Assembly: GCA_029256725.1 (NCBI GenBank) | Contig: JAQSXJ010000017.1 | Coordinates: forward strand, 55,556 to 119,555 | DNA: 64,000 bases | Reading direction: 5' to 3' | From: Anaerocolumna sp. | GTDB lineage: Bacteria; Bacillota; Clostridia; Lachnospirales; Lachnospiraceae | In this document: positions 55,671 to 59,101 of the stretch, piece by piece | Layout: the number at the start of each line of letters is the position of its first letter | Numbering within the stretch: the stretch's first letter is position 1 | The notes under the pieces: generated by a model | The model's database searches: none | Told to the model about the DNA's origin: nothing | What the model saw: only the letters and a program-made list of their open reading frames with translations | Position numbers and translations under genes: made by a program

Positions 55671-57767
55671 TCAGCCAAACAATGAGATTGTCAGGAAGAC
55701 TGTTGCGGTAAGGGAAGCAATCAGCGATACCACTGTTATCTGCGTATTGAGAGACGGACCGGCTGTATCCTTAAAAGGATCTCCGACTGTATCTCCAACT
55801 ACAGCTGATTTATGAGCAGCTGAATTCTTGCCGCCATGGTGCCCTGATTCAACATACTTCTTTGTATTATCCCATAACCCACCTGCATTGGACATAAATA
55901 AGGCAAAAATCAGGCCGCTTACAATATTACCGGTTATAAATCCGCCTACTGCTGTTACACCGCCTATAAAACCAACCAAGAGTGTTGCAATAATAGTCAT
56001 TAACCCTGCAGGCACTAATTCTTTCAGTGCACCATTGGTGGCTATTTCAATGCATTTATCATATTCAGGTACAACACCGTCCTTGCCTTCTTTTAGACCT
56101 TTGATATCCCTGAACTGCCTGTGTATCTCATCTACCATCCTCTGCGCATTCCTATCCACTCCTAACATCAGCATAGCAGAAAACAAAGGAGGTATTGCCG
56201 CTCCAAATAGCAGCCCGAAAAATACTGTTGGATTTAGAATATCAAAGCCAGTTATAAGAGGTTTGCCAAGCTCGATTGCTGCTGTATTTACTTCACTGAT
56301 AAAAGCACCCAGCAATGCAATAACTGTAAGTCCTGCTGCTCCTATGGAGAAACCTTTGGTAACGGCTTTTACAGTATTCCCTGCACTGTCAAGCGTATCA
56401 GTAACTTCAAGGGCCTTCTCTCCCAGCCCTCCCATTTCCACTAGTCCTCTTGCATTATCAACAATAGGTCCATAGGCATCATTGGATATAATCATTCCTA
56501 CAATAGATAACATTCCAACAGCTGCCATAGCGATTCCAAACATGGGATAACCTGCACCTAAAGGTTCGCATATTTTATAAGCTGCCAATGCGGATATACC
56601 AATTCCTATCATGGAAGGCAGAATGCTCATTAACCCATAAGATATACCTGATAATATGGTAAAGGCCGGTCCTGCTTCGGAGGCTTTGGCCACCATATGG
56701 ACAGGCTTTCTGGAATCATTGGTAAAGTAATCACTGGCCAGACCTATAACAACTCCGACTGCCAGACCTATGGCACTGGCAAACCAGATACGCCATTCAA
56801 ACTTAAATATATATGTAGCAAGAGCTGTCAGTATACCGTATAAAACAGTCGTTACATAAGTATTACTGTTTAATGCCCTACCGGGGTTACCGCCTTCTTT
56901 CATCCTTGCTGTAAGTACACCTGTGATAGAGGCAAGAAGTCCCAATGCACTATAACAGAAAACCATACTGGCGTTGCTGCTTCCGCCGCCGCTTTTGTCC
57001 AGGGCGCTTGCCATAACCAGCGCTGCTGCCATAGATGCTACATTGGAATCAAATAAATCTGCTCCCATACCAGCCACATCACCTACATTATCTCCTACAT
57101 TATCAGCAATTACTGCCGGATTTCTCGGATCATCTTCCGGAATTCCAAGCTCCACTTTCCCTACCAGATCGGCACTGATGTCGGCAGTTTTTGTGAAGAT
57201 CCCACCGCCGGCTTTGGCAAATAGCGCCATGGAGCTGGCACCGAAACTGAAGCCAAGAAGAGCTGTCGTATTATTGGTAAGCAATAGTACCAAGGTAACT
57301 CCAAGAAGGCTGGAACCTACCACCGCCATACCCATAACTGCTCCTCCGCGAAAGCCCGCCATAAAGGACGGTCTGATACCTTTGACAGATGCTTCCGCTG
57401 ATTTAATGTTTGCAATAGTGGCTATGCTGATACCGACCTTTCCCGCTGCACCGGAAAAACAAGTACCAAAGATATAGGACAATGCCATCAATACATTGTC
57501 TAAAAGACCGCCTTCCCATATCGGGTCAGGCAAAAACAGAAAGATAACAACTGCGATCACACCGCAGAAACGGGATAAAACTTTGAATTCTTTCACTAAA
57601 AATGTGTTTGCACCATTACGTATCAGCTTTCCTACATGAGCAATCCGCTCATTGGAAGAAGGCCTTTTGTTTACCCAGCGATACAGCCAAAAGGCTGCAA
57701 TAAAGGCAAGGATTGAAACAATAATGGATGCAGCTTGAAAAACCTCTACATTGATATCCATATTTTC
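55671..57767 (-). CDS. hppA: Membrane-bound proton/sodium-translocating pyrophosphatase
   Basis: PEDDPRNPAVIADNVGDNVGDVAGMGADLFDS, GNTVKAVTKGF, SAVVGDTVGDPFKDTAGPSLN. Confidence 0.96.
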   Translation of the reverse strand, partial: ENMDINVEVFQAASIIVSILAFIAAFWLYRWVNKRPSSNERIAHVGKLIRNGANTFLVKEFKVLSRFCGVIAVVIFLFLPDPIWEGGLLDNVLMALSYIFGTCFSGAAGKVGISIATIANIKSAEASVKGIRPSFMAGFRGGAVMGMAVVGSSLLGVTLVLLLTNNTTALLGFSFGASSMALFAKAGGGIFTKTADISADLVGKVELGIPEDDPRNPAVIADNVGDNVGDVAGMGADLFDSNVASMAAALVMASALDKSGGGSSNASMVFCYSALGLLASITGVLTARMKEGGNPGRALNSNTYVTTVLYGILTALATYIFKFEWRIWFASAIGLAVGVVIGLASDYFTNDSRKPVHMVAKASEAGPAFTILSGISYGLMSILPSMIGIGISALAAYKICEPLGAGYPMFGIAMAAVGMLSIVGMIISNDAYGPIVDNARGLVEMGGLGEKALEVTDTLDSAGNTVKAVTKGFSIGAAGLTVIALLGAFISEVNTAAIELGKPLITGFDILNPTVFFGLLFGAAIPPLFSAMLMLGVDRNAQRMVDEIHRQFRDIKGLKEGKDGVVPEYDKCIEIATNGALKELVPAGLMTIIATLLVGFIGGVTAVGGFITGNIVSGLIFALFMSNAGGLWDNTKKYVESGHHGGKNSAAHKSAVVGDTVGDPFKDTAGPSLNTQITVVSLIASLTATVFLTISLFG

Positions 57768-57993
57768 CATCTCCAATCTATTATAATGCAATTTTATCAT
57801 AACATTACTAGAGGATATGTTCAATATGAAGTTGTTAGTCCATGCATTTTTGTATATTTAATACAAGATACATGTAATATTTTTCCTGTTTATTAGTGCA
57901 ATATTTAATTCATTATCTCTTTATAATACATTATACTAGAGCCTCAAAATTTCTTGTTGATTTAACGTGCTAAAGCTAATTTTTATGCACTTT

Positions 57994-58212
57994 CAGGAAA
58001 AATACCCAAAACTGAAAGAGCGAATGCGCCTATGGAAAGGGATTAGAAGTCCTTTTCTCTGAAAATTTTGTGCTATATTCTAAAACAGATTGTCTGAGCG
58101 TTAGCGAGTTATCTGTTTTAGAATATGCCCAGCACAAAATGTCCAGGGAATTAGGACTTCTTATCCCTTGGAATGAAGCATGAGTCTTTCAGTTTTGGGT
58201 ATTTTTCCGTCC
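57994..58212. repeat. Long hairpin element, copy C (full form)
   Basis: Outer arms 57996-58018 and 58186-58208 are perfectly complementary (23 bp); inner gggattagaagtcc/ggacttcttatccc and attctaaaacaga/tctgttttagaat; shares blocks with copy A. Confidence 0.85.
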
Positions 58213-58249
58213 GTATTACAACAACACAGAGCTTTTGACTCTCCAGACA

Positions 58250-59101
58250 TTATAAAAGTTTACCGGAAATAGACTCTGTTGTCCTTGCCTTATTCTCAGC
58301 ACACTGGTTGTAATGCTTTACAAAAAATTGAAGATATAAGATTTCTAAAATATAGAGCTGTACGATGGAAGTGGTTGATGCACCGCCATCAAGAGGTCCT
58401 TCATTCGAACCGCATAAAAGAATGGCATCTGATTGGGCGGTGAGAGCAGTTTTTGCAAAATGGGTAACGATAACAGAAGGACAACCGTTTCCCTTTAATA
58501 GCTTATGAACTTCAATCATATCTTTTGTAGAACCGGAATAGGAGAAAATGATTGCCAAATCCCTGGAATCCATAAGTGATGCAGCTATATGCTGCATATG
58601 TGCATCTCCTGTAAATTCAACATTGGGTATGATTCTCATGAACTTCTGTTTCGCCTCTAACGCTATAGTTCCCGAGGACCCTACTCCAAAGAAATGAATT
58701 CGTCGGGCGGCTGACATAAGATCTGCTGCTTTTGCAACCTGTTCATAATCCAGCAACTGGTAAGTCTCTCTGAGTCCATCCATATGAGCAGAAAGAGTCT
58801 TCTCACATATTGTCTTTGTATCATCTCCACTTTCAATGATACCTGCTACCTGCTCCTTCATTTCTCCCATTTTAGTTATATCCTGAGCCAGAAGCATTTT
58901 AAAGTCCTGATATCCGTTTAATTTCAACTCTTTGCAAAATCGAAATACTGTGGTATCTCCCACTTTACAATTCTGAGCCAAGTCTGTAATTGAGGTATAC
59001 AGCACTTTTCTAGGATTCTCAAATATATAATCTGCTACCTTTTTTTCGGCTTTCGTAAATCCAGCGTAGTTCTCTTTTATTCGGTCCAGTATTCCTGCCA
59101 T
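58250..59101 (-). CDS. RpiR-family transcriptional regulator (HTH + SIS)
   Basis: FTKAEKKVADYIFENPRKVLYTSITDLAQNCKVGDTTVFRFCKELKLNGYQDFK; SIS domain FFGVGSSGTIALEAKQKFMR. Confidence 0.94.
   Translation of the reverse strand: MAGILDRIKENYAGFTKAEKKVADYIFENPRKVLYTSITDLAQNCKVGDTTVFRFCKELKLNGYQDFKMLLAQDITKMGEMKEQVAGIIESGDDTKTICEKTLSAHMDGLRETYQLLDYEQVAKAADLMSAARRIHFFGVGSSGTIALEAKQKFMRIIPNVEFTGDAHMQHIAASLMDSRDLAIIFSYSGSTKDMIEVHKLLKGNGCPSVIVTHFAKTALTAQSDAILLCGSNEGPLDGGASTTSIVQLYILEILYLQFFVKHYNQCAENKARTTESISGKLL

Follow-up and report, generated by a model that had tools for sequence, protein, structure and literature searches.

A palindromic MITE family with a paired and conserved foldback core in an Anaerocolumna genome

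The 219-nt hairpin at positions 57994–58212 of the analysed window (64,000 nucleotides of contig JAQSXJ010000017.1, Anaerocolumna sp., assembly GCA_029256725.1) belongs to a non-autonomous DNA transposon (MITE) that inserted here recently. This insertion, copy C, is complete, occupies 57936–58246 (about 311 bp), carries its terminal inverted repeats (TIRs) outside the hairpin and contains no gene. It belongs to a new palindromic MITE family, ordinary in movement and unusual in the maintenance of its core. We consider it rather probable that the insertion was mobilised in trans by IS4-like relatives and that its core is kept by template switching together with purifying selection.

Ends, target site and partner insertion sequence

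Copy C is flanked on both sides by the exact 8-bp target-site duplication ACATTATA (57928–57935 and 58247–58254). Inside it are located the 19-bp TIRs of subfamily 1 (consensus CTAGAGAGTCAAAAGTTCT / AGAACTTTTGACTCTCTAG), the left one being CTAGAGCCTCAAAATTTCT (57936–57954, plus strand) and the right one CTGGAGAGTCAAAAGCTCT, read on the minus strand (58228–58246). The left TIR is separated from the hairpin by a plus-strand spacer (57955–57993) containing a decayed older TIR-like stretch and a conserved TAYRCGATTT-type box beside CAGG, and the hairpin is followed by the right spacer of subfamily 1, GTATTACAACAACAC (58213–58227, plus strand). The insertion lies between two minus-strand genes, one at 55671–57824, judged by eye to be presumably a membrane pyrophosphatase, and one at 58250–59101, which we take, likewise by eye, to be an RpiR-type SIS-domain regulator. 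It abuts the stop codon of the latter, with which the right target-site duplication overlaps.

Window positions 56600–59100 were aligned on both sides to Clostridium sp. KNHs205 (G005) and to a third copy-rich congener (G013), where 342–344 nt were missing, corresponding to empty orthologous sites. A second empty site was found for the copy at locus L004 (duplication TTAATATA), which is absent in G013. Near this copy, at about 2388–2500 of locus L004, an 85–110-bp repeat recurs at several further sites in G005 and G013 and is possibly another small repeat family. Among 14 two-ended copies, exact 8-bp duplications were present at 5 and duplications of 7–8 bp at 7, with 0.4–0.5 expected by shuffling; those of subfamily 2 have decayed past definition. 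In the preliminary description CAGG and CCGTCC had been taken as the ends of the element; the empty alleles and the target duplication place them at 57936 and 58246 instead. Its view of a mobile hairpin with perfectly paired but diverged arms is retained, the inferred boundaries are not, as the TIRs lie outside the hairpin, and the checks proposed with it, for target duplications and for empty alleles, were both positive.

As the ISPepr1 subgroup of IS4 is described with 5′-CT ends and AT-rich duplications of 7–8 bp (PMC2266710), DDE_Tnp_1 was searched for in the three copy-rich genomes, resulting in 14 loci. One of these, L363 in the window's own genome, has the ends CTTGACAGTAAAAAGTTCT / CTAGACAGTCAAAAGTTTT, 1606 bp apart, with a 7-bp duplication (TAATTTA). 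L363 is the only partner IS found, and two points weigh against its role: its ends differ from the MITE TIRs at 2–3 of 19 positions (16/19 and 17/19 match), and the transposase gene is broken, its frame of 478 codons containing one internal TGA; the product matches DDE_5, with the IS4 and IS701 models below their cut-offs, and has a complete YREK motif (Y-2-R-3-E-6-K). The nearest NCBIfam model is IS701, under cut-off. Compared with ISPepr1, the CT start and the duplication length agree, and the inner part of the end consensus YT-AA-YTT---A is only partly matched. Other copies of this type of insertion sequence (IS) in the genus are decayed. The family is recognised as one of palindromic MITEs by its TIRs, its 7–8-bp target duplications, its empty sites and the presence of an IS whose ends are nearly those of the MITE. 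Judged by its ends, the MITE would have been mobilised in trans by relatives of the L363 IS4-like IS, which would supply a DDE transposase. The 219-nt foldback core is the cargo of the TIR-bearing unit.

Two further candidates were rejected. Seven nearly identical 1.6-kb IS of G005 (L364–L370), encoding a 479-aa DDE_Tnp_1 transposase, have different, unrelated ends and were discarded as partner; a solitary TIR at G005:C3:1755637 was discarded as an autonomous element, since it sits among ordinary genes.

Fold, subfamilies and distribution of the core

The foldback core (CAGG...CCGTCC, 57994–58212, plus strand), which had been described as the element itself, is supported by its fold, arm pairing and covariation. 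The hairpin is real, with a minimum free energy of −112 kcal/mol (z −15.8; 0 of 200 shuffles as good). Its perfect outer arms were confirmed and measure 24 nt, 57996–58019 being fully complementary to 58185–58208 (both plus strand). The common CAGG start at 21290, 30421 and 57994 was likewise recovered, as was the lack in copy C of the apical insertion seen in copy A, a feature of about 10 of the 59 full copies in the 5.5-Mb draft genome containing the window (G000). Against Rfam 15, nothing in the window matched at gathering score; only generic miRNA-precursor matches far under threshold were obtained. At copy C neither an intrinsic terminator (stem, then T run) nor a sigma-70 promoter motif was detected, and an intrinsic terminator was rejected on this ground; terminators around the copies gave a mixed picture.

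By alignment of the flanks two subfamilies were distinguished, each with conserved sequence beyond the limits drawn before. The missing cccttgtgaa tail of copy C had been thought to define a minimal element, which is incorrect, since its subfamily (1) has its own shared tail GTATGACAACAAAACAGAACTTTTGACTCTCTAG, along with a conserved left part CTAGAGAGTCAAAAGTTCTAGTTGATTTAACGTGCTAAAGTTAATTTTTATACGATTT. Copies A and B belong to subfamily 2. The core of copy A (21290–21526, plus strand, 237 nt) bears the apical insertion, and its locus is common to G013 (G013_L110 with G000_L041); that of copy B (30421–30524, plus strand, 104 nt) is internally deleted. In copy B and about 25 other short G000 copies the inner hairpin is deleted and the outer arms are still paired. 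Deletions within a palindrome are expected to leave outer arms paired.

Using BLAST and the core motif, at least 40 full copies were found in G000, with 97 motif matches versus 11 for the reversed control. With a profile, 115 copies or fragments were recovered in G000 (a count that may include one fragment repeated across overlapping loci), 62 of them near full length; the corresponding numbers were 81 and 72 for G005 and 60 and 58 for G013. The core pattern was present in 5 of 15 genomes of the genus (73, 83, 61, 3 and 1 matches, the 83 being those of G005) and, outside the genus, in only one of 299 genomes sampled across the family, with 2 copies. The proposed conservation of the boundaries holds in part: CAGG and CCGTCC are widespread in three species of the genus and absent from the copies of one out-of-genus genome and one congener. 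At L416 and L417 (G183, another genus) and L108 (G009), the core is recognisable with CAGG and CCGTCC replaced, and at L108 TIR-like GGTCAAAAGCC / GGGCTTTTGACC flank the hairpin core. To the right of the hairpin, a tandem 3′ arm plus tail was observed at L225, L239 and L252 (G005) and at L416 and L417, which could stem from replication slippage or template switching. A phage or plasmid source was rejected, as no match to the element was found in phages, plasmids or IMG/VR. A literature search returned no description of this family.

Maintenance of the core

Over 189 copies, the 22-bp outer stem was 94.8% Watson–Crick and 2.8% G-U paired, compared to 73.3% and 7.4% when the 3′ letters were re-dealt and to 24–39% Watson–Crick in slid registers; 155 distinct arm sequences were counted among these copies. 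Internal-loop mismatches are conserved, not erased, so arm copying must be restricted in some part of the stem.

Loci were matched on both flanks for 42 G013–G005, 27 G013–G000 and 29 G005–G000 pairs (98 comparisons). Between G013 and G005, identity reached 0.96 for the arms and 0.965 for the inner core, versus 0.77–0.87, with many gaps, in the flanks. Conservation extends for about 13 nt beyond either end of the hairpin, and the TIR positions are conserved no more than background. Once a copy has inserted, its TIRs and outer flanks decay, and the core with about 13 nt per side stays conserved at the same locus in three species.

Changes on both sides of a pair were observed 101 times versus 13.5 expected if independent (about 7-fold, no double counting), and 85 of the 101 led from one Watson–Crick pair to another. 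The latter have a transition:transversion ratio (ts:tv) of 39:46, similar to the 998:1471 of the flanks (p 0.31) and unlike the 73:23 of one-sided changes (p 3e-5 against the doubles). Stepwise compensation via G-U should favour transitions, a bias not expected if one arm is copied onto the other; the neutral-like ts:tv of the doubles therefore speaks for arm-to-arm copying by template switching, combined with selection, rather than for stepwise G-U compensation. G-U intermediates occur. At five loci the length was changed by one base in both arms, and isolated double transversions were seen in cores that had otherwise hardly changed. Template switching might predict clustered adjacent doubles; adjacent double changes showed no significant clustering. 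In the explanation that we favour, the matched changes would come mainly from template switches inside the hairpin, by which one arm is copied onto the other at replication. The remaining changes would be removed by purifying selection on the core, which probably acts on it as a hairpin of plus-strand RNA or of single-stranded DNA.

Selection alone, acting with two-step compensation on an RNA hairpin domesticated near the 3′ ends of genes (for mRNA end protection or processing, or as antisense RNA), is unlikely, yet it accounts for several observations. The core is conserved in situ; one-sided mispairs read on the plus strand are G-U over A-C at 52:21 (p 4e-4), which holds in most gene contexts; and at 62 of 89 non-redundant loci (62:27, p 3e-4) the gene on the right is oriented toward the element, its stop codon being about 60 nt away. 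It is at odds with doubles that are as transversion-rich as neutral flanks next to strongly transition-biased one-sided changes. Moreover, transcripts reading through from the right-hand gene would be of the minus strand, whereas the G-U bias is towards the plus strand, and copy C lacks promoter and terminator motifs. From the sequence comparisons, the G-U excess, the orientation bias to gene 3′ ends and the roughly 13 conserved nt per side suggest a strand-specific function; possible roles of the core are those of a hairpin RNA made from the plus strand and of DNA that is single-stranded during replication. It is tentatively proposed, at less than even confidence, that transposon cargo has turned into genome-wide functional hairpins, with the unit TTCCATAYGATTT-[hairpin]-CCTTGTGAAAAAC selected at dozens of loci near gene 3′ ends and its stem repaired arm-to-arm by template switching, each locus thereby holding a perfectly paired stem of its own.

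Gene conversion between dispersed copies, by which whole cores would be swapped and orthologs would seem changed in both arms at once, appears improbable. A few loci carry 4–8 double changes, and those with up to 8 could be conversions between copies; however, at most double-bearing loci there are one or two, accompanied by few further differences, and such loci give a ts:tv of 17:18. Orthologs are also far more alike than paralogs, G013 paralogs being only 0.87 (inner) and 0.76 (arms) identical, so the copies are not homogenised. A REP-like element that a Y1 (RAYT) transposase would move, and whose true ends would be CAGG/CCGTCC, was rejected as highly improbable: the minus-strand GGAC plus hairpin looks REP-like by eye, but Y1_Tnp is absent from the window's genome and, in the genus, does not correlate with copy number. 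In addition, the copies have TIRs beyond the hairpin and target duplications of 8 bp, and the ends of the empty sites lie outside the hairpin.

Relation to known systems

This family gives a natural test of the way in which long stems are kept perfectly paired, by stepwise G-U changes or by arm copying: 98 ortholog comparisons are available with the flanks as internal control, and the ts:tv test already separates both-arm from one-arm changes. The survival of a MITE core beyond the decay of the transposon ends around it suggests that hairpins commonly written off as repeats have a host-level role.

Template switching, in which one arm is copied from the other in replication, has been proposed to maintain the hairpins of RNA genes (PMC8794818), and matched changes in both arms are there, too, explained by arm copying; the present case differs in that the element is bacterial and dispersed, and dozens of its loci can be compared across three species. 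The presumed mobiliser, the ISPepr1 subgroup of IS4 (PMC2266710), shares with L363 the 5′-CT ends, 7–8-bp AT-rich duplications, a length of 1.5–1.6 kb and a complete YREK motif; L363 deviates in the partly matched end consensus, in its nearest NCBIfam model (IS701, below cut-off) and in being a broken copy. REP/RAYT systems likewise form many intergenic hairpins per genome, whereas this family has target duplications and no Y1 transposase. The palindromic bacterial MITEs ERIC, RUP, SPRITE, Correia and QMITE2 of Coxiella, reviewed in PMC10969869, are alike in being short, gene-less, AT-rich and intergenic, with TIRs, a predicted foldback transcript and, in QMITE2, 7–9-bp duplications; no sequence relation of these five to this family was found. 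In contrast to them, the foldback of this family is an internal cargo separate from the TIRs, which stays paired and conserved after the TIRs have decayed.
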